Source: Duganella sp. Root1480D1 (GTDB taxonomy: Bacteria > Pseudomonadota > Gammaproteobacteria > Burkholderiales > Burkholderiaceae_D). Taken from it: a stretch of 64,000 bases of DNA. Within the stretch, counting starts at the first letter, position 1; every line of letters starts with the position of its first letter. The stretch spans positions 1 to 64,000 of the forward strand of contig NZ_LMFZ01000003.1 in the NCBI RefSeq assembly GCF_001427305.1, in the 5' to 3' direction. Shown in pieces: positions 13,924 through 48,955 of this stretch. The notes beneath the pieces are model-generated. The model ran no database searches. It saw nothing but the letters and a program-made list of their open reading frames with translations, and was not told the DNA's origin. The translations under genes were made by a program, and so were the position numbers.

Positions 13924-15270
13924 TCACGGCTCGCGATCGAGCGCCGGAATTGTGACAACGGCTTCCTGGAGGATCCATGCTTCTATCGCATCGTGCCACT
14001 TGCGCAGCAGATCGAGCGGCCGGCGCCGGTAGTGCTTTTCGACGAGCGCACTGGGCCGGTGCCCCATGATCTGCGCGGATACCCCGCTTGGCATTTCTAC
14101 CCACTCGCACAGCGTTCCGAACGAGCGGCGTAGCCCATGCAAGGTGACATGAGGGAGGCCGGCGTTGACCAGGGCATCGGTATGCGCCTGCGTAGGGGAA
14201 ATGATATGGCCACTAGCTGAGGTGTTGCTACTGAAAACCCATGGGGAGGGCTCCCAATGATTGCCTGCTGTCTCCAGTTGCCGGATACGACGTTTGGTTG
14301 GCGGTGTTTCGTTCATTCGTTTAAGCGCCAGCAATAGACTAGCGAAGTAGGGCGTGAGAGGAATGGTGCGGACACCTTCTACTTTGTCGCGGATATTGAG
14401 GCTACGCCATTTCAAGTCCACGTCCTCCCACTTAAGCATGGCAAGCTCTTCGCGGCGCGCCCCGGTCAGCAATAGTCCTTGTAGATAAAAGCTGAACACC
14501 GGATTCGGGACGGCGCGCATGGCGGCGAACCAGTCTTTCAGTTGTTCACGCTGCAGACAGTCACCAATTTTGGCGCGCGGCGGCGGAACGGCATCGCGCA
14601 CTTTTCGCGCCTTGTAAGAACCCGCCGGAACAATGCCGCAATACGCTTCCTGACTCTCAGCCCAATGAATGAACGCCCTCAGTTTGCGGTAGCTCTGCGT
14701 AGTGTTGGTGGGCCGGGCCGCTGATTCCTCCGCAGCCCACTCAGCCAGCACGGAGGCCGACAAATCGGCGAGTTTAAGTGCCATCAGTGGCGCAAGCGGG
14801 CCCGCGACGGTTTTCCCTGGACCGCGCTTCTTGCCCTGGCCGCCCGGCGCAGCCATTTGAATATGGTCCGTGTAGTGACGTTCGCTCCACCGGGGTTTTC
14901 TGTCTTCAAGATAGATTGGCCAGACCTCGCCAAGTGTCAAATCTCGGCGCTCAGCCTGGGATCTGGCCACCGCGTTCTTGGCAAGTTGTTCGACGCGCTG
15001 CTGGCGTGGATCGAGTCCAAGGTCGACCTGTGCTTTCAGGCGGGTCGCTTCTGCCTGAGCGTTGACTACCGTCCAGGTCCGAACGTCACCGATGGTGGTC
15101 CGCAATGTTTTGCCATTCAGGCGCGTCTCGAAGATGTATGATTTACTGCCGCCATCGCTGGCCCGGAGCCCCAAGCCTGGGGTTTTGGCGTCCCAAAGCA
15201 GGGATTGACGCTTGCCTGGCTCGCACTGAAAGGCCGATATCCGTTCTGCCGTGAAGTTGATTTTTGCCAT
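13924..15270 (-). CDS. Tyrosine recombinase/integrase (P4/CP4-like)
   Basis: 448 aa from the ATG at 15270 (MAKINFTAERISAFQ), preferred over an upstream in-frame start because it matches the usual start of this family. There is an N-terminal DUF4102-type arm-binding domain (LWDAKTPGLGLRAS), a SAM-like core-binding part, and a catalytic domain with R in GARREELAMLKW, HxxR in TLHGLRRSFG, H in IMGHRPSA and the nucleophile Y in EKHYRRRP. All catalytic residues are present. It is transcribed away from a tRNA-Arg 3' fragment 180 bases upstream of its start. It most likely integrated an island at that tRNA. Confidence 0.93.
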   Translation of the reverse strand: MAKINFTAERISAFQCEPGKRQSLLWDAKTPGLGLRASDGGSKSYIFETRLNGKTLRTTIGDVRTWTVVNAQAEATRLKAQVDLGLDPRQQRVEQLAKNAVARSQAERRDLTLGEVWPIYLEDRKPRWSERHYTDHIQMAAPGGQGKKRGPGKTVAGPLAPLMALKLADLSASVLAEWAAEESAARPTNTTQSYRKLRAFIHWAESQEAYCGIVPAGSYKARKVRDAVPPPRAKIGDCLQREQLKDWFAAMRAVPNPVFSFYLQGLLLTGARREELAMLKWEDVDLKWRSLNIRDKVEGVRTIPLTPYFASLLLALKRMNETPPTKRRIRQLETAGNHWEPSPWVFSSNTSASGHIISPTQAHTDALVNAGLPHVTLHGLRRSFGTLCEWVEMPSGVSAQIMGHRPSALVEKHYRRRPLDLLRKWHDAIEAWILQEAVVTIPALDREP

Positions 15271-41877: not shown

Positions 41878-42603
41878 ATGCGCGTCATCATTGTCGATGA
41901 TGAAGAATTAGCCCGCGGCGTCATGCGGGAGTACCTGCGAGCCCATGCCGACGTGGAAGTGGTGGCCGAATGCGGCAACGGCTTCGAAGCCGTGAAGGCG
42001 ATTGCTGAACTGGAGCCGGATGTGGTGTTCCTCGACATCCAGATGCCGAAGCTCGATGGCTTTGAAGTGGTGGAGCTGGCCGGCAGCAAGCCACACTATG
42101 TTTTCGCCACGGCCTACGACCAGTACGCCTTGAAGGCCTTCGAAGTGCATGCGATCGATTACTTGCTCAAGCCATACCCGCAAGAACGGCTGGACCAGGC
42201 CGTGGCGCATGTGCGCAGCCGCCTTGGCAGCGAACACCCGCCGGTAGCGCAGATGGCGACCGAAGCGGCGACCCGCAACGGTCCGCTGGAGCGCGTTCTG
42301 ATACGCGACGGCTCACGCGTGCACGTGATCGCCGCGGAACGCATTGACTCCATTGAAGCGCAAGACGATTACGTTGAGATCCTGGCGGAGGGCAAGCCTT
42401 ACCTCAAGAACCAACGCCTGTCCGAACTCGAGGAGCAGCTCGACCCGACCCGTTTCGTGCGCTTGCACCGCTCGTGGATCGTCAACGTCGAGCGCATCGA
42501 ACGCATCGAACAGGCCACTAAGGACAGCCACTGTGCCGTGCTGAAGGACGGACGAAAGATTCCGGTCAGTCGTAGCGGGTATCAGAAGGTGAAGGGCCTG
42601 TAA
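41878..42603 (+). CDS. LytTR-family response regulator
   Basis: 241 aa. The receiver domain has D8/D9 and phosphoacceptor D53 in VVFLDIQMPKLDG; the output domain is LytTR (VHVIAAERIDSIEAQDDYV, then FVRLHRSWIVN), which binds DNA with beta strands. It is paired with the kinase just upstream. A control target is likely this operon itself and envelope genes (inference). Confidence 0.93.
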   Translation: MRVIIVDDEELARGVMREYLRAHADVEVVAECGNGFEAVKAIAELEPDVVFLDIQMPKLDGFEVVELAGSKPHYVFATAYDQYALKAFEVHAIDYLLKPYPQERLDQAVAHVRSRLGSEHPPVAQMATEAATRNGPLERVLIRDGSRVHVIAAERIDSIEAQDDYVEILAEGKPYLKNQRLSELEEQLDPTRFVRLHRSWIVNVERIERIEQATKDSHCAVLKDGRKIPVSRSGYQKVKGL

Positions 42604-42686
42604 CCGTATGTCTCATGTTAATATTTTGCAAAAATGTGAAAGTGATGGCCAATTTGTTTTGGGCCATCGATAACAAAGGATAATGA

Positions 42687-42908
42687 ATGGGGCAAACACT
42701 GGGGAGCCAAGCTTTCGGATCTTGGTATGACATCCTGTACTGGGCACTCTTTTCCGGCATCTTCTTCTACGTGGCTGCCACAAGTTCGAGTTGGCCGCTG
42801 GCCACGCGAAACAAGATCCCTACTTTCCTGTTAAACCGAAAACTCTGCATCGGTCTAGGTGTCGCATTCGCCATCGTCGCAGCTGGAAAGCTGTTCCGAT
42901 TTTTTTAG
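42687..42908 (+). CDS. Small membrane protein
   Basis: 73 aa with two membrane helices (ILYWALFSGIFFYVA and LGVAFAIVAAGKLFRFF). AAAGGA precedes the ATG. It is followed one base later by a larger membrane protein. No family recognised. It opens a series of small plus-strand genes extending to 48.2 kb. Confidence 0.6.
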   Translation: MGQTLGSQAFGSWYDILYWALFSGIFFYVAATSSSWPLATRNKIPTFLLNRKLCIGLGVAFAIVAAGKLFRFF

Positions 42909-42909
42909 C

Positions 42910-43446
42910 ATGAACGGCACAAGCAACCGCTCTTCTTTCGTCACAGTCGTCGCCTGGATTTTTATAGTTCTGTCGGGACTCGGAACCCTGGTTTCCATCA
43001 TGCAGAACATCATGATCCAAGTAATGTTCAATGCCACCGAAATGGAAAAAGCTATGCATGCCGCACCTCCGCCTGGCGTTCCGCCATTTGCGGCATTCAT
43101 GACCAGTCATTTTCAACTTCTCTTCGTTGCGTTCCTCATTATCTCCGTCTCGATGCTCGCCTCTTCGATCGGGCTCCTCAAGCGGAAAAATTGGGCGAGG
43201 CTGATCTTCATAGGCCTAATGGGCTTGGGCATCCTATGGAACCTTGGCGGGCTGGTTCTTCAACTCACAATGTACTCATCAATGCAAAGCAGCTTTGCAA
43301 ATGTGCCGGATGCAGCGGACATGAAATCCTTCATGATTGCCATGGCAGTTTTTAGCGTCATTTTTGCACTGGGGTTTAGCGTGTTGTTCGGCTGGATTGC
43401 CAAACGTTTGCTATCGCCTTCCATCGTGACGGAGTTCAAGCAGTGA
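42910..43446 (+). CDS. Membrane protein, four helices
   Basis: 178 aa. Helices at about residues 10-30, 68-88, 95-118 and 142-165; an inserted Pro-rich loop (AAPPPGVPPFAAF) follows the first helix. The general plan resembles small unknown membrane proteins of Proteobacteria. ATG 42910 directly follows the previous gene. It overlaps the next gene by 4 bases (GTGA). Confidence 0.65.
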   Translation: MNGTSNRSSFVTVVAWIFIVLSGLGTLVSIMQNIMIQVMFNATEMEKAMHAAPPPGVPPFAAFMTSHFQLLFVAFLIISVSMLASSIGLLKRKNWARLIFIGLMGLGILWNLGGLVLQLTMYSSMQSSFANVPDAADMKSFMIAMAVFSVIFALGFSVLFGWIAKRLLSPSIVTEFKQ

Positions 43447-43787
43447 GTTCTAATAAAACACAGACGACAATATTTGCGCTTTCGATGCTCTTTGCTGCAA
43501 GCGTCTCGGCGGAGGAAGATATTTGCTCATCCGAGTACGAACGTGGGCGGCGCGAAATGGGGGCCTACGCCGAAATGATGGGGATTATCGAAGGAGCGAT
43601 TTACGGCCACTCGCTTACGATCGCTAGTCCGAAAATCTGTCTGGTTGGAACTCCAAAAGAAAAAGTTCAAAAGATCGCCAATGCTTTCGGGAGTCAATCG
43701 CATGCCGAGCCCCCGTTGGAGTTGGACGATGTACCTTCAAAAGAGCAGGCCCAAAAATTCCTGGAGCGCTTCTTTCCATGCAAATAA
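43443..43787 (+). CDS. Exported small protein, weakly Rap1a/Tai-like
   Basis: 114 aa from GTG 43443, overlapping the previous stop. The signal peptide ends at SVSAEED. The mature part has three cysteines (DICSSEYERG, KICLVGTP, FFPCK) and a helix YAEMMGIIEGAIYG. The spacing of the last two Cys and the final FPC resembles Rap1a/Tai-type periplasmic immunity proteins, but this is a pattern match only. No toxin gene is adjacent. Confidence 0.5.
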   Translation: MSSNKTQTTIFALSMLFAASVSAEEDICSSEYERGRREMGAYAEMMGIIEGAIYGHSLTIASPKICLVGTPKEKVQKIANAFGSQSHAEPPLELDDVPSKEQAQKFLERFFPCK

Positions 43788-43791
43788 TTCG

Positions 43792-43814
43792 CGCTAACAA
43801 GAATCACGTTAGCG
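43792..43814. repeat. Inverted repeat with integron-core-like ends
   Basis: CGCTAAC and GTTAGCG separated by nine bases form a perfect inverted repeat. The arms look like the R boxes of attC sites, but the spacing is too short for a whole site. It may be a deletion product of an attC. Confidence 0.5.
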
Positions 43815-43927
43815 AGCCAATTTGGAATGCCTCGATTTTGGTTCCGTTCTCGGCCCATGTCGGCGTGAAGGCTAAATACACCGATAGCGCAAAACCGCGA
43901 TAACATCGCGCTCAAGTCAGACCACAT

Positions 43928-44398
43928 ATGAAACGCCTCTGTATAGTCAGTGCATTGATGCTCCTCTCCTCGCCTGGTATGACCCAGACGCTCTACAAGT
44001 CCGTTGGGCCGGATGGAAAGATTGTTTATAGCGATCGCCCTCCCGCAAACGGAAAGATCGAAAAGACCCTGCATATTCAAAGTATCCCGAACACGGCCTT
44101 GCCAAGCGCTACAGTTGGCGAGCTAGCCCGCCTTCGTAAGGAAGGAAGGCCAACGACCGGCCCTATTTCTGGGGCGGTCATGTTCAGCGCCACCTGGTGC
44201 GGGTACTGCCGTCAGGCGAAGGCCTACCTTGCCCAGCATGGGGTAACGTACAAGGACGTCGATATCGACACTCCTGAAGGGAAGTCTGCCTTTGCTAAAG
44301 TAAGCACCGAGAACGGAATTCCTTACCTGCTCAAGAACGGTGAGGGGATACGCGGGTACAGCAAAGAGGCGTATGACCAATTCTTTGGCGGGCGCTGA
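43928..44398 (+). CDS. Exported DUF4124-glutaredoxin protein
   Basis: 156 aa. A signal peptide is followed by a DUF4124 unit (LYKSVGPDGKIVYSDRPP) and a glutaredoxin fold with redox site C91-GY-C94 (ATWCGYCRQAKAYL), cis-Pro segment GIPYLL and GYSKEAYDQFF. It probably performs thiol-disulfide exchange in the periplasm. The neighbours are unrelated small genes. Confidence 0.8.
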   Translation: MKRLCIVSALMLLSSPGMTQTLYKSVGPDGKIVYSDRPPANGKIEKTLHIQSIPNTALPSATVGELARLRKEGRPTTGPISGAVMFSATWCGYCRQAKAYLAQHGVTYKDVDIDTPEGKSAFAKVSTENGIPYLLKNGEGIRGYSKEAYDQFFGGR

Positions 44399-44424
44399 GT
44401 GTCGCCTCACTTTCAGGGAGTTAT

Positions 44425-44832
44425 ATGAATATTGAAAAGCGCAACGCTTTGGTTGAAAAGCTCAATTCGGAGCCGGAACCTCAACTCGTTCCCGTTGACG
44501 AATTCTTCGATGGGAATGATGACATTGGCTCTATCGGTTGCAACCTGCCAGAGCACCCCGGCATTGACGCGTTTCGCACGGCACTCGCCCGGCTCAAAGA
44601 GCGAGACGATGTGGTCGCCGTATATGCCCAGATTGCAGAGATTGACCCTGGAGAAGATTGTTGGCCATTTGCGGACACAGTCTTCGTCGTCGGTTGGTTA
44701 AGTTCTGAGGATTTAGCGGCAGAACTTGAAGCGCTCGAGCCTGACGAAGTCGGCTCGGCCGAAGACTTCGGCGTGCCAGAGCAACTGCTCCATAAGCACA
44801 AAGAGCCAGTGTTGGCGGCTTGGTGGGATTAA
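44425..44832 (+). CDS. Acidic hypothetical protein
   Basis: 135 aa, rich in Glu and Asp. GGGAG precedes the ATG. Segments include VPVDEFFDGNDDIGSIGCNL and PFADTVFVVGWLSSEDLAAEL. No signal peptide and no domain recognised. The composition is similar to stand-alone cassette proteins. Confidence 0.6.
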   Translation: MNIEKRNALVEKLNSEPEPQLVPVDEFFDGNDDIGSIGCNLPEHPGIDAFRTALARLKERDDVVAVYAQIAEIDPGEDCWPFADTVFVVGWLSSEDLAAELEALEPDEVGSAEDFGVPEQLLHKHKEPVLAAWWD

Positions 44833-44932
44833 TGCCGAGCCACTCAGCAATGACCACTGATTAAGTCATGATGGAAAAGCTCTTCGCCATTGGAGCAATC
44901 CTAAATGAAGATTTACCTCAAGCCAGCATCAC

Positions 44933-44939
44933 GTTAGGC
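44933..44939 (+). other. attC-like R' core site (GTTAGGC)
   Basis: GTTAGGC is an exact GTTRRRY core, 7 bases before the ATG of the next gene, the same placement seen at the three following sites. The rest of a folded attC cannot be drawn clearly upstream, so this may be a degenerate site. Confidence 0.5.
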
Positions 44940-44946
44940 GGCATAC

Positions 44947-45384
44947 ATGAATTTCATAGCAGTTTTGGAGCGTGGCATTCTTATCTTGCTTTCGCTATGC
45001 CTGGCGGCAGGTGGAAGTACTCACGTAGTTGACATTGTTCGAGGCGGCTTTTTTCCTTATCATTTTGTGCCTTTTCCAATCAACTTGTTCTGGACTTCGC
45101 TGGCCGTGTTGGACTTCACTGCGGTGCTGCTATTGTGGAATCGCCGCAATGTAGGCGTACTGCTAACGCTAGCGATCATGTGCGCGGACGTTGTGATCAA
45201 CTCATATGCGACTTATTGGCTCAGAATTCCATTTGAGAGCTTTGCTCCGCTTCAGGCGCAATCGCTTTTCCTGGGCTTCGTCCTTGGCGTTTCTGGATTT
45301 ATATTACGCAGCAGTTCACAAGCTGTATCATCCAACCAGGCATTCCGGCATGCGCCTACGGGCGCGGCTGAATCGAAACGTTAG
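44947..45384 (+). CDS. Membrane protein, cassette-like gene
   Basis: 145 aa with four membrane helices (GILILLSLCLAAGG, INLFWTSLAVLDFTAVLLL, VLLTLAIMCADVVI, SLFLGFVLGVSGFIL). The start lies just after a GTTAGGC core. The last 18 codons and the stop lie inside the next attC, as is usual for integron cassettes. Function unknown. Confidence 0.68.
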   Translation: MNFIAVLERGILILLSLCLAAGGSTHVVDIVRGGFFPYHFVPFPINLFWTSLAVLDFTAVLLLWNRRNVGVLLTLAIMCADVVINSYATYWLRIPFESFAPLQAQSLFLGFVLGVSGFILRSSSQAVSSNQAFRHAPTGAAESKR

Positions 45385-45386
45385 AG
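45330..45386 (+). other. attC-like site 1
   Basis: The left core TCCAAC and right core GTTAGAG enclose a GC-rich imperfect palindrome with GCGCC-TACG-GGCGC at its centre, followed by GGCTGAATCGAAACGTTAGA. The right half closely resembles the classic aadA attC. About 57 bases, within the normal size of attC sites. Confidence 0.72.
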
Positions 45387-45393
45387 TTCGGAT

Positions 45394-45639
45394 ATGGTCT
45401 ACCTCGCCGTTACTTCGCACGGGCTGAAACATGCGCTGCGTGCAGTTGAAAAATGCGCCGCGCCGATTTGGTGCGGTTCCGATGCAATTTCCGAGTCAGA
45501 CTTCGAGAATCTGGACTATGCATCGTTGACCCGATTCTCCTATCCTCTTGGTGGCGAGGATCAAGAGGTGCTGGCTGGCGCAGTCGAAACCATCCAGGAA
45601 CACCATCCTGGAGAGCCGATCTGGATCGAGCATGCTTAA
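45394..45639 (+). CDS. Hypothetical protein, cassette-like
   Basis: 81 aa, starting 7 bases after the attC core. Acidic: VYLAVTSHGLKHALRAVEK, WCGSDAISESDFENL, TIQEHHPGEPIWIEHA. No domain recognised. It shares a cassette with the next gene, as no core site separates them. Confidence 0.62.
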   Translation: MVYLAVTSHGLKHALRAVEKCAAPIWCGSDAISESDFENLDYASLTRFSYPLGGEDQEVLAGAVETIQEHHPGEPIWIEHA

Positions 45640-45654
45640 TCCTATCCGATCAAC

Positions 45655-46044
45655 ATGATCCTCGTGATACCGAAGCCGCAGCTTACCGCCGAACAGATTT
45701 CCGTGTTGAGAAAAATGTGCAGCGCTGGAATATCCGAGATTCGCAATGCCGGATCGACGCAAACGTCGATCCGCGACGTTGAAATTTTCGGGAGTCAATG
45801 GGAAATCGAGCGCCTGTTCCTTCGGCAGTTAAGCCGGGAGTACCTAAGCAGCCCTAATCCGCCATTCTTCGTCAGGGAAGTGGACCTGAATGGTTACGGT
45901 GAAGTGCTCACCCCGCAGGCATTGAATGAGCGGCTGAAGTTTTGGAGAGGAATAGAGTTGGAACAGCAGATGTTCAGCGACCTGGAAAACGGCTTCATTT
46001 CATCTCGCGAAGAATTTGTCCCACATGACGAAGAATGGACATAG
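45655..46044 (+). CDS. Hypothetical protein, second gene of the same cassette
   Basis: 129 aa. Starts 15 bases after the previous stop. Segments MILVIPKPQLTAEQISVL, REVDLNGYGEVLTPQALNER and a helical end. Soluble, no domain recognised. Its stop lies at the left edge of the next attC. Confidence 0.62.
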   Translation: MILVIPKPQLTAEQISVLRKMCSAGISEIRNAGSTQTSIRDVEIFGSQWEIERLFLRQLSREYLSSPNPPFFVREVDLNGYGEVLTPQALNERLKFWRGIELEQQMFSDLENGFISSREEFVPHDEEWT

Positions 46045-46107
46045 CAACTCGCTCCACCGGATGCGCCAAGCCCAATGCGCGCCGGCTGAACTCTACGCAC
46101 GTTAGAG
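46042..46107 (+). other. attC-like site 2
   Basis: The left core is near AGCAAC, the right core is GTTAGAG, and an inner palindrome CCGGATGCGCC ... GCGCGCCGG spans the centre. The right half, CGGCTGAACTCTACGCACGTT, has the same order as site 1. About 66 bases. Confidence 0.65.
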
Positions 46108-46110
46108 CCC

Positions 46111-46491
46111 ATGAATACATCCTCGCTTCAGCGATTTATCCAAATTCACACTGCCTATGCTGACGCTATAGAAAGTCACATGCGTCGGCTTTGGAATCGG
46201 GAGCTTTCATCGGACGAGGTGAACACGATTCGTAGTTACACGCTATGTGGATCGTTCATGTCGCTGGAGGCAATCGATCAAGGACTGTCTCTTGTCGGGT
46301 CGGCAGAGCGCGCAACGGTGGACTTTCTCTTTATGCGCGCTGAGGTCAATAAGTGCGCGGGGGAGGTCGTTTTGGAAGTCAGCCGTCGCCTGGCACTTGG
46401 CGGCCATTCGCCGCAAGCCTCTGAGTTTCCAAATTTGCTGGCGTGGGAGGCGGCCTTGATAGGCGGGCGAAGTGGGCTCCAGTCCGGATAG
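46111..46491 (+). CDS. Helical hypothetical protein, cassette-like
   Basis: 126 aa, ATG 3 bases after the core GTTAGAG. All-helical: FIQIHTAYADAIESHMRRLW, YTLCGSFMSLEAIDQGLSLV, FLFMRAEVNKCAGEVVLEV. No domain recognised. The stop abuts the next core. Confidence 0.62.
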   Translation: MNTSSLQRFIQIHTAYADAIESHMRRLWNRELSSDEVNTIRSYTLCGSFMSLEAIDQGLSLVGSAERATVDFLFMRAEVNKCAGEVVLEVSRRLALGGHSPQASEFPNLLAWEAALIGGRSGLQSG

Positions 46492-46538
46492 CCAACAGCT
46501 ATGTTGGCATCACAAGTGAAGCAACCTGAAAGTTAGGA
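46491..46538 (+). other. attC-like site 3 (short)
   Basis: GCCAAC left core and GTTAGGA right core enclose 35 bases. A second small hairpin (GCCAACA/TGTTGGC) overlaps the left core. Shorter and less symmetrical than sites 1 and 2. Confidence 0.5.
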
Positions 46539-46545
46539 AATCAAT

Positions 46546-46887
46546 ATGAAGATGTACATCCTTGTTCGCGACGACATTCCACTCGGCTTCGCGATGGTGG
46601 CAGTTGCACATGCATCACTGGCGGGGTATCTGAAGTTCCAGGAATCGCCCGAGGTAAAGGAGTGGCTTTCTGGGCCGTTCTTCAAGGCCGTCTGCAAAGT
46701 CAACCCGAAGGAGTTCGAGAACGCCAAACTTGTTCCTGACCATGTTGTTCTCACCGAATCGGCGCTCGGCAATCAGGAGGTCGCCATCGTTTTCAAACCG
46801 CGAATTGAGTGGCCAAAAATGTTTAAGTTCCTAAAACTCTACCGCGAAGCGCCTTCGGTATCACCAGCAGGCGCCACTGATGCTTGA
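46546..46887 (+). CDS. PTH2-like protein (peptidyl-tRNA hydrolase 2 fold), cassette-like
   Basis: 113 aa. The sequence KMYILVRDDIPLGFAMVAVA then HASLAGYLKF resembles the start of PTH2/Bit1 proteins (Asp-Leu-x-x-Gly then Ala-x-x-x-His-Ala). It ends in an IVFKP strand. It lacks the strong central AGxT signature, so catalytic function is uncertain. ATG lies 7 bases after core GTTAGGA. Confidence 0.6.
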   Translation: MKMYILVRDDIPLGFAMVAVAHASLAGYLKFQESPEVKEWLSGPFFKAVCKVNPKEFENAKLVPDHVVLTESALGNQEVAIVFKPRIEWPKMFKFLKLYREAPSVSPAGATDA

Positions 46888-46900
46888 CGCCTCCATTAAC

Positions 46901-46937
46901 CGGACGGCTAGCGCGTTGCGCGCTCCGCCCGATTTTT
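46901..46937 (+). terminator. Intrinsic terminator at the end of the cassette run
   Basis: CGGACGG pairs with CCGCCCG (one mismatch) and AGCGC with GCGCT around a five-base loop, followed by ATTTTTA. It lies 14 bases after the PTH2-like gene. Confidence 0.72.
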
Positions 46938-46956
46938 ATCGCACACTTTCGATCTC

Positions 46957-47445
46957 ATGAAGGCTTCACGAGTAATTTCAGCCTTTTTTCTATCCGTGGC
47001 TGCTGCCTCATCTGCTAATGCGGGGGCGCAAGCGCTAGAGCTTGACAAGCTTGGCGAGAATGCGTGGGGCGAAGACTGGGCTGGCGGTTGCTGGTTCCAT
47101 GAAGAGTTTCTCCCTGACCGCAGTGGTGGCGAACTTATGTTTCTTATTCGCGGCGAGGGAAAAGGTGGTGTGGCAGTCCTTAGTCTCGATGGAAAGGTCG
47201 AAGAGGTGCCTTTCTCGCAGACTCTGTCAAAAAGCAAAGCATTTCGGATGGGGGCGCGCGATTCTTATCTTTACAGGTCTGCCGATCTAAAGGTCAAAGT
47301 GACCACCATTGTTACCGAGGTCCCGACGGCAAACGAATGTGCTGGTGATTGTAACGAGAGTAGTGGCTTTGCGGCCGAAATTGAAATCAGCAAGGGCGCT
47401 CGCAACCGGCGATACGAGTTCAAAGCGGGAGCCTGCGGACTGTGA
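46957..47445 (+). CDS. Exported hypothetical protein
   Basis: 162 aa. The signal peptide (MKASRVISAFFLSVAAASSANA) is followed by a beta-rich body with cysteines in GGCWFHEEF, NECAGDCNES and GACGL, likely disulfide-bonded in the periplasm. No known domain. Confidence 0.65.
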   Translation: MKASRVISAFFLSVAAASSANAGAQALELDKLGENAWGEDWAGGCWFHEEFLPDRSGGELMFLIRGEGKGGVAVLSLDGKVEEVPFSQTLSKSKAFRMGARDSYLYRSADLKVKVTTIVTEVPTANECAGDCNESSGFAAEIEISKGARNRRYEFKAGACGL

Positions 47446-47455
47446 ACGAGCCATA

Positions 47456-47599
47456 AGAAAGAATCACTACGCAGTCGAGCCGGATGGATTCTATTTCGTC
47501 GATCATCTTACGAACAAGGACGTGGCGTCTGTTGCACTTCGGTGTTTCATCGACGAGGCACTTCCACATTCGCCATCGATTCAGATCATTGAGCCATAA
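47456..47599 (+). pseudogene. 3' fragment of an unknown gene
   Basis: An open frame without start reads NHYAVEPDGFYFVDHLTNKD through ALPHSPSIQIIEP and a stop. The amino-acid quality is good but there is no 5' part and no ribosome site, so it is a truncated tail, perhaps left by cassette or deletion events. Confidence 0.4.
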
Positions 47600-47606
47600 T
47601 ACTGGA

Positions 47607-47885
47607 ATGGAAAAACGAACTGTTGCCGATAGTGTTGGACCCTGGATGGAGCCTGGCTTCGAATCGAGCTTGATTGAACGCTGCCGTGCAAATTGGTCGG
47701 TCCCTGTCGGCGAAATTACGAACTACGTCTTGGCTACGTTTATTCGCCAGCGAATCGCTTTGGAAATTGTGGTGCCCGAAGCACAACGGCGCATCGCAGT
47801 TGGATTTACAGACGATACGGAAATTCTTGACGATGAGCTTTCGCTGGCCATTGCGGGAATCTTGCCTACTTCGGATCCGCAATGA
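47607..47885 (+). CDS. Hypothetical protein
   Basis: 92 aa, beginning MEKRTVADSVGPWMEPGFES, then ITNYVLATFIRQRIALEIVV and DDTEILDDELSLAI. Soluble and acidic. The composition recalls small immunity-type proteins, but no family can be named. Confidence 0.62.
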   Translation: MEKRTVADSVGPWMEPGFESSLIERCRANWSVPVGEITNYVLATFIRQRIALEIVVPEAQRRIAVGFTDDTEILDDELSLAIAGILPTSDPQ

Positions 47886-47913
47886 CGTTCGCCCCAAGAA
47901 GATAGAGACCAGC

Positions 47914-48222
47914 ATGTCTACTGTTCCAAGCGTCCCTTTGCCAGAAATGCGCGAGTTGATCCATTGTGCTCGTGGGTTTGTCGCTGGCGACGTTCATTTT
48001 TCATATGTCTGTTCTGCTGCGGGAACATTTCGTGACGTGACGCGGTTTCTGCCGGTTAGCCGCGAGATCAAGCAGATGGCTGATGAATGGGCGGGAATGG
48101 CCACGCGCGCTTGGCCGGAAATGGCCCGAATTACCAATCCGATTTCGGAAGAAGAATTTCGGGAGTGGGTGAGAAATCAAATTCGTGTTTTTGAACCTTT
48201 TCAAGGTCCCAATGGCCATTGA
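47914..48222 (+). CDS. Hypothetical protein
   Basis: 102 aa. Contains MRELIHCARGFVAGDVHFSY and EWAGMATRAWPEMARITN. Soluble, helical. It follows the preceding gene by 28 bases and may be paired with it. No domain recognised. Confidence 0.6.
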   Translation: MSTVPSVPLPEMRELIHCARGFVAGDVHFSYVCSAAGTFRDVTRFLPVSREIKQMADEWAGMATRAWPEMARITNPISEEEFREWVRNQIRVFEPFQGPNGH

Positions 48223-48451: not shown

Positions 48452-48955
48452 ATGAAAATTATCTTGCCCTTGATTCTCGCCCTGGCCGCCATTCCGGCGC
48501 ATGCCCAGCTCTATAAGTGGACCGATGCAGACGGGAAGGTCCATTATTCCGATCGCCCGCAGGATGGCGTCAAGAGCAAGGAGCTTGCAGTGCAGCGCGC
48601 AGCCACGGCGCCGGCTGCGGCCCCTGCGAACGACTGGCAGCAACGTGAGCTCGAATCTCGTGAACGGCGCATGAAACGCGAGGCCGCAAACCAGGAAGCG
48701 GCCGACACTGCAGCACGCAATGCGGGAAAGACACCGTATAACCCCAGCCAGCACCGCAACAACAAGCCGATGTCCGATGACGAGGTCTGCAAGCGCGATG
48801 CGCAGCAGATTGAGTTCTCCGAGAAGGTCCCCCGCCTTGCTTTCGGCGGCGGGAATGGATCGGTGGCTGTTAGCGAAGAAGAGCGCCAGGCCATCGTGCG
48901 CCAGCGCAAGGAGAACCACGCCTTGCTGTGCGGCTCAGGCCAGCGCACGCACTAA
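48452..48955 (+). CDS. Exported DUF4124 protein
   Basis: 167 aa. The signal peptide MKIILPLILALAAIPAHA is followed by DUF4124 (LYKWTDADGKVHYSDRPQD), then a long charged helix and a tail with two cysteines. Widespread periplasmic protein of unknown role. It overlaps the end of the convergent helicase gene by 4 bases. Confidence 0.8.
   Translation: MKIILPLILALAAIPAHAQLYKWTDADGKVHYSDRPQDGVKSKELAVQRAATAPAAAPANDWQQRELESRERRMKREAANQEAADTAARNAGKTPYNPSQHRNNKPMSDDEVCKRDAQQIEFSEKVPRLAFGGGNGSVAVSEEERQAIVRQRKENHALLCGSGQRTH

Follow-up and report, generated by a model that had tools for sequence, protein, structure and literature searches.

Clusters of attC sites lacking an integron integrase

Clusters of attC sites lacking integron integrases (CALINs) numbered 2961 in one survey, against 2760 complete integrons (PMC9024848), and their origin is debated, off-target insertion, loss of the integrase gene intI and rearrangement all having been proposed (PMC8618304). 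In Xanthomonas, intI-less arrays occupy conserved chromosomal loci away from ilvD and intI, and those passages of that paper that deal with the attI insertion site describe none at these CALINs (PMC12444791). A CALIN with an attI of its own is known from the Shewanella prophage M16-3 (PMC9892861). Detection of attI by the program IntegronFinder is confined to class 1 integrons (PMC9024848), so that the heads of CALINs are easily overlooked. Here we describe a run of 13 small genes on the forward strand of a 64,000-nucleotide stretch of Duganella sp. Root1480D1 (positions 1 to 64,000 of contig NZ_LMFZ01000003.1, termed the window), located between a LytTR response regulator gene (41878-42603) and a gene encoding a DUF4124 protein (48452-48955). 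This run is likely to be a far-decayed array of integron cassettes that has no integrase of its own, which grew at an attI directly behind the LytTR gene and received its cassettes, probably, through a distant integron integrase (IntI).

The assembly, designated G000, comprises 6.60 Mb in 50 contigs, with the window at G000:C3:1-64000; other G-numbers designate genomes of relatives, C-numbers contigs, and orphan an attI, or head, that has no complete intI adjoining. The host is part of the Duganella/Pseudoduganella section of the Oxalobacteraceae, the nearest named record to its LytTR protein being that of Pseudoduganella guangdongensis DS3 (94% identity; records very near the window were possibly excluded). 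Genus-wide comparisons covered 74 genomes, and family-wide comparisons an even draw of 392 genomes.

As in a CALIN, small genes are followed by at least two tandem attC of the same strand, without intI nearby (two matches in 64 kb to an attC model of our own), but the run is headed by an attI relic, and the same site holds an intact attI in the relatives G043 and G071. Arrays without intI at conserved loci, in genomes that encode intI at another place, are a trait in common with the Xanthomonas CALINs, from which, as far as their description of attI goes, the present arrays differ by their attI heads and exchanged cassettes. Whereas the Shewanella CALIN, as described, is on one prophage, the platforms reported here are chromosomal, orthologous between species, and have cassettes in common. 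The attI, the attC arrays and the small cassettes, mostly of unknown function, are also those of a sedentary chromosomal integron; the difference is that the integrase is not encoded at this locus, and that one IntI and several attI heads occur per genome. No prior report of orthologous chromosomal attI-headed CALINs was found among the titles and abstract openings of a mainly open-access literature. CALINs as such have long been described, and one with an attI head has been published; on these sources, chromosomal orthologous ones look new.

An attI relic heads the run

A hidden Markov model (HMM) built from six intI-linked attI found its best match of the 64 kb on the forward strand at 42607-42665 (14.0 bits, E 0.0024; next match E 7.4), starting 3 nt past the end of the LytTR gene. 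In 25 control loci totalling 492 kb it gave no match at E<=10. Aligned locally to the intact attI of G043, this relic scores 31, a value reached by none of 5000 shuffles of two-base blocks, which differ from true dinucleotide shuffles (best 18), nor elsewhere in the window (at most 16); it also aligns to an attI relic on contig C5 of G071, described below.

In this clade, the attI that are linked to intI are similar to AAAACGTCA-N3-TGACGTC-N-ACTTTACGTTRGGC. At the same site as in the window, G043 carries this pattern without mismatch (C2:79115-79148), followed by three attC, and its only intI is on another contig; in G071 the pattern, with one mismatch, lies about 2 kb behind the LytTR gene (C4:167317-167350) and precedes six attC, intI likewise being elsewhere. 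The initial annotation had described the run as an attC cluster without an integrase; this description holds, but it overlooked both the attI relic at 42607-42665 and a degenerate attC at 46882-46953.

Just upstream of the crossover, most attI of the clade, linked or orphan, carry the palindrome ACGTCA-N3-TGACGT (e.g. L168, L175 and L167), which could bind the integrase or a repressor. Promoter-like hexamer pairs before attI match in 9 of 12 letters at the linked heads of G000, G043 and G071 and the orphan head of G068, in 8 of 12 at the orphans of G022 and G066 and the linked head of G019, and in 6-7 at the rest; these counts, made without a shuffle control, hint at a Pc promoter before attI heads.

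Two attC sites and one degenerate attC

Four cores of the GTTRRRY type had been annotated at 44933, 45380, 46101 and 46532. Their positions are correct, lying 7, 7, 3 and 7 nt before the ATG codons at 44947, 45394, 46111 and 46546, but only the first (GTTAGGC) fits the consensus strictly, the others (GTTAGAG, GTTAGAG and GTTAGGA) being deviant. The core alone carries little weight because the run holds nine strict GTTRRRY on its forward strand; over the whole genome the plain core pattern was uninformative, with 19 matches versus 194 for the reversed control.

Two covariance models, distinct from IntegronFinder's own and free of window sequence, were made for this analysis. Model R1 was built, with a structure set by hand, on 15 attC from intI-linked arrays of relatives, which were left of 18 strict candidates after dropping L156:6749 and L158:5107 as doubtful and L155:18044-18120 as misaligned; one 129-nt candidate was trimmed to its 58-nt right part. 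Applied to 18 loci, from the genome under study and from relatives, R1 gave 103 matches at E<=0.1, and these make up model R2. The R2 alignment covaries, with 202 cells altered on both sides (78.5 in shuffles) and two-sided change in 12 paired columns (9.5 in shuffles), in a test that leans toward the hand-set structure to which the alignment was fitted.

Both models recognize two forward-strand sites in the 64 kb: a 57-nt attC at 45330-45386 with its core GTTAGAG at 45380 (R1, 19.2 bits, E 0.021; R2, 26.4 bits, E 0.00026), and a 69-nt attC at 46039-46107 with a decayed R'' box and its core GTTAGAG at 46101 (R1, 16.9 bits, E 0.074; R2, 22.5 bits, E 0.0026). The best further matches are a single poor one for R1 (10.0 bits, E 3.2) and one of 11.0 bits (E 2.2) for R2, and R2 found no match at E<=0.1 in 598 kb from 49 LytTR loci of other genomes, some of them represented twice. 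When stretches were scored against 96 non-redundant attC of relatives (background up to 38), the top sequence match of the window was 46882-46953 (score 55, to an attC of the intI-linked array of G071), a degenerate attC on the forward strand in which the GTT of the crossover is lost (R2 7.7 bits with filters off; fold z -2.02). The attC at 45330-45386 came second (51), and that at 46039-46107 scored 33, inside the background.

The initial annotation had proposed an attC covariance-model search; the one made with our models matched two of its sites but left the cores at 44933-44939 (GTTAGGC; 44834-44939 gives R2 7.6 bits with filters off and a sequence score of 24) and 46532-46538 (GTTAGGA; no R2 match ending at 46538 with filters off, sequence score 22) not recognizable as attC. 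A hairpin does lie at 46486-46538, ahead of the latter core (z -2.85), but its ends are unpaired. A perfect 7-bp inverted pair with AAC/GTT ends at 43792-43814, forward strand (R2 9.7 bits, E 0.47 with filters off; z -3.67), is a possible, if doubtful, R''-R' remnant that has lost its centre. No Rfam family matched in the run at E<=1. The two attC-like palindromes annotated as foldable are attC by both models, but their folding is no better than that of shuffles: the bottom strand, which in an active array forms the recombining hairpin, gives z -0.17 at 45330-45386 and -0.04 at 46039-46107. The two sites are attC by descent but probably no longer by function, and we infer that the window's sites are inactive.

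The LytTR site is variable between close relatives

The LytTR gene (Pfam LytTR and Response_reg) forms a conserved left border, with 92-97% protein identity across the six closest relatives and left flanks of 83-90% identity, and nucleotide homology ends at its 3' end. Homology resumes at the DUF4124 gene (Pfam DUF4124), which forms the right border and is itself 68-73% identical in three relatives; the gene to its right is 86-90% identical where covered. In G056 the DUF4124 gene is absent and the next conserved gene follows directly. The interval measures about 5.8 kb in G000, 4.4 kb in G043, 13.8 kb in G071, 0.96 kb in G015, 0.7 kb in G022 and 0.07 kb in G056, and it has no blastn match longer than 60 bp at E<=1e-5 in common with the five relatives whose contigs span it (that of G068 ends inside). 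Conservation of the whole run as a fixed operon had been named as evidence that would speak against cassettes; no such conservation exists at this site, the interval differing in all five. R1 found no attC at the LytTR site of G015, G022 and G056 or in the piece available from G068. The run has the lowest GC of the window (0.519 versus 0.594).

A single distant integrase gene

The only tyrosine recombinase match of the window, at 14023-14544 on the reverse strand, is outside the integron-integrase list, and the locus consists of an attI relic and attC without intI rather than of a complete integron. The initial annotation was thus right in seeing no intI in the window. The search for intI elsewhere in the genome, also suggested at that stage, yielded one intact gene: C8:117723-118664 (470 bits) is the sole match in the genome above the integron-integrase cut-off of 265 bits, a level reached in 15 of the 74 genus genomes. 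Its open frame of 330 codons lies 650 bp from a contig end and has ruvC and ruvA as neighbours at a distance of about 0.95-2.1 kb; it is accompanied by a linked attI (C8:118788-118821) and one cassette, after which the contig ends. Because the last 55 bp of contigs C8 and C12 match at 98%, the five attC at C12:726-729 kb may be a continuation of the intI-linked array, with an IS91-like element in between.

Two weak integron-integrase matches, C12:729094-729887 and C48:326748-327541, were considered as broken intI and rejected: their products are 33-52% identical to IntI, and they have the two-frame look of the IS91 type, followed by a transposase start. We take them to be IS91-type tyrosine recombinase genes. 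The two regions are 73% alike and both shift frame near a 'GLKK' A-run; the sharing of this frame change by two diverged copies hints at programmed frameshifting.

attI-headed platforms and the exchange of cassettes

The attI pattern, allowing up to three mismatches, occurs 17 times in 11 of the 74 genus genomes (reversed control, 0) and in 10 of the 392 family genomes, one of these being outside the genus and having three mismatches. A complete intI adjoins six of the 17 (in G000, G019, G022, G043, G068 and G071) and is not adjacent to the other 11, to which the HMM adds two heads, C12:666894-666956 in the genome under study and C22:79031-79093 in G043, giving 13 attI heads away from a complete intI. 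Behind 12 of these, G054 being left out, attC were counted, and at least two were present at 11: three at G043 C2, two at G043 C22, ten at G022 C96, three at G068 C44, eight at G071 C3, six at G071 C4, 19 at G015 C113 (which has five at its intI array), five at C12 of G000, three at G066 C4, and three and five at the heads of G009, with none at G020. The two attI-headed arrays on G009:C7 are some 97 kb apart; no integrase was matched in this genome at E<=1e-60, and intI is represented by just a truncated copy next to one of the heads.

The heads at C12 of G000, C22 of G043 and C44 of G068 are one and the same site, next to a divergent UvrD-like helicase gene, the 1.4 kb ahead of them being 100% identical between G000 and G043 and 93% in G068. 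Several species thus have the helicase site in common (G000, G043, G068), and the same is true of the LytTR site (relic in G000, intact in G043 and G071). About 8.4 kb around the helicase-site platform (G000:C12:658000-672000 compared with G043:C22:73000-85000) is 98.7-99.5% identical, versus about 90% for the LytTR flanks, as if this platform had been exchanged lately between the two species.

Within single genomes, cassettes are common to intI-linked and orphan arrays. The intI-linked array of G071 on C11 and its orphan array on C3 have a 321-bp unit in common at 100% identity, which in C3 lies directly behind the orphan attI; in both it starts at ACGTT (from an attC in C11, from the orphan attI in C3) and ends at the next GTTA. 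These arrays are also alike over another 428 bp, at 95.6% identity. The first cassette behind the linked attI of G043 (C10) is the second in its LytTR-site array (C2), over 281 bp at 97.9% with edges at the cores, and in G068 (C42 and C44) the leading cassette of the orphan array matches a cassette of the intI array at 95% over 223 bp, its right edge being off the core. Many repeated cassettes, 75-95% alike, are common to the arrays of G022, only stretches of 71-140 bp to those of G015, and only attC-size stretches to the LytTR-site array of G071 and its other two arrays. Cassettes with crossover edges that are common to the platforms of these relatives indicate that orphan heads still receive cassettes, and we infer, on this indirect ground, that IntI acts there in trans. 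The IntI of G015 and G066 are 52% and 62% identical to that of G000, and the orphan heads of these two genomes may therefore lack a cognate integrase. A multi-cassette stretch of 1.8 kb is 89% identical between the orphan array G015:C113 and the intI-linked array G043:C10.

A related gene run was found in G071 at C5:273961-277671, where homologues of the window genes starting at 42687 (87%), 46546 (81%) and 47607 (59%) keep the order that they have here. An attI relic (26.6 bits, E 6.7e-8 in 16 kb) immediately precedes the first of them, and homology with the window begins just past the crossover. Other genes are interspersed, and nine window genes between or beside these three are absent. A gene run may have changed platform, its genes being found behind the LytTR-site attI in the window and behind another attI relic, at a different chromosomal place, in G071. 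The DNA ahead of the C5 head was not found in five relatives, a search that had no positive control and is hence uninformative.

Genes of the run

All 13 frames are open and on the forward strand, and 43928-44398 (DUF4124 and glutaredoxin) has the only clear Pfam domains among them. The first gene behind the attI relic (42687-42908, 73 aa) has no Pfam match; its 87% homologue lies behind the attI relic at G071:C5:277354-277566. It is followed by four small genes absent at this site in the relatives, 42910-43446 (one Pfam match, below cut-off), 43443-43787, 43928-44398 and 44425-44832. A gene of 145 aa (44947-45384, no Pfam match) runs into the first attC. The two genes between the pair of attC, 45394-45639 and 45655-46044, have neither a Pfam match nor a homologue in the 219 loci compared. 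Behind the second attC lie 46111-46491 and the PTH2-like gene 46546-46887, which matches PTH2 marginally (23.6 bits, cut-off 23) and is present in 15 of the 392 family genomes, this one included; three further genes without Pfam match (46957-47445, 47607-47885 and 47914-48222) complete the run. Good homologues were found for three of the 13 (42687, 46546 and 47607) among the 219 loci. The flanking genes (42910-44832 and 46957-48222) are probably older cassettes of which no attC is left, as the initial annotation had supposed, because the gene at 42687 sits directly behind an attI relic both here and in G071:C5.

Origin of the array

The array would have grown at the attI behind the LytTR gene, of which 42607-42665 is the relic, its cassettes entering by recombination between attI and attC; the enzyme was probably an IntI whose gene lies elsewhere, at present on contig C8. 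Decay of the attI and of most attC would have followed in this species and left the genes frozen, while G043 and G071 retained intact sites. Several observations weigh against this account. The E value of the attI relic is only 0.0024, or 0.023 with a wider profile, and its crossover is uncertain, falling at 42644-42650 (GATGGCC) by alignment to G071 C5 or near 42656 by the HMM. Searched against the entire genome of the strain, R2 gives the two window attC E values of only 0.026 and 0.26; their 26.4 and 22.5 bits compare with up to 78.7 for attC of relatives, and their fold z of -0.17 and -0.04 with -4.41 for an intact site of G049. G015, G022 and G056 hold other genes or none at the LytTR site, without attC, and the G071:C5 run has no R2 match even at E 10. 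Ten of the 13 genes have no homologue in the 219 loci, save a short glutaredoxin match of the gene at 43928, and R2 found nothing within 1.5 kb of the PTH2-like gene at its 14 other loci in the 392 genomes.

Some of these observations would also fit an ordinary variable site, where accessory genes are swapped by homologous recombination at the flanks and any attC arrived with them as stray remnants: at this site the small genes of G015 and G022 are not accompanied by attC, G056 lacks such genes, and the PTH2-like gene occurs elsewhere without attC. This is nevertheless very improbable: two attC stand above all background of the window and sequence similarity adds a third, an attI relic heads the run, and G043 and G071 have intact arrays at the corresponding place. 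The relic and the two intact attI argue equally against an array that began when IntI placed cassettes off target, behind the LytTR gene at a random position of the chromosome (attG) that was never an attI; although such insertion is one of the proposed origins of CALINs (PMC8618304), we give it hardly any credence here. A complete integron that once stood here, lost intI by deletion and decayed without service in trans is an unlikely origin too, if a less remote one. Traces of the 5' end of intI occur upstream of four orphan heads of the genus (G009b, G020, G054 and G071 C3; 0 of 200 shuffles as high in each case), with a borderline trace at the LytTR-site head of G043 (1 of 200); at G015, 16 of 200 shuffles scored as high. 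The other head of G009 adjoins the truncated intI. Some heads are thus integrons that lost intI. No such trace was found in the window, where 195 of 200 shuffles scored as high, nor before six other heads (G022 C96, G066 C4, G068 C44, G071 C4, C12 of G000 and G043 C22), and the exchanged units with crossover edges mark orphan heads as still receiving cassettes. At heads other than those with traces, deletion of intI and copying of a short head are indistinguishable.

Taking the decayed array at an attI behind the LytTR gene as the preferred reading, the existence of an attI-headed, intI-less set, the exchanged cassettes and the run at G071:C5 make this array a dying member of a set that is probably served in trans. 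We lean, with some reserve, towards a wider arrangement in which a single IntI encoded on the chromosome would serve several attI heads, each fixed at a locus of its own and kept across species, namely the LytTR site, the site beside the UvrD-like helicase gene and others, so that cassettes would be loaded and exchanged at several places without further integrase genes; the window would then show a disused dock. If this is true, attI-headed CALINs at orthologous loci that exchange cassettes with an intI-linked array would imply that part of the CALINs are live platforms, served in trans, and the intact entry site in close relatives suggests that one integrase is able to serve several docks per genome.

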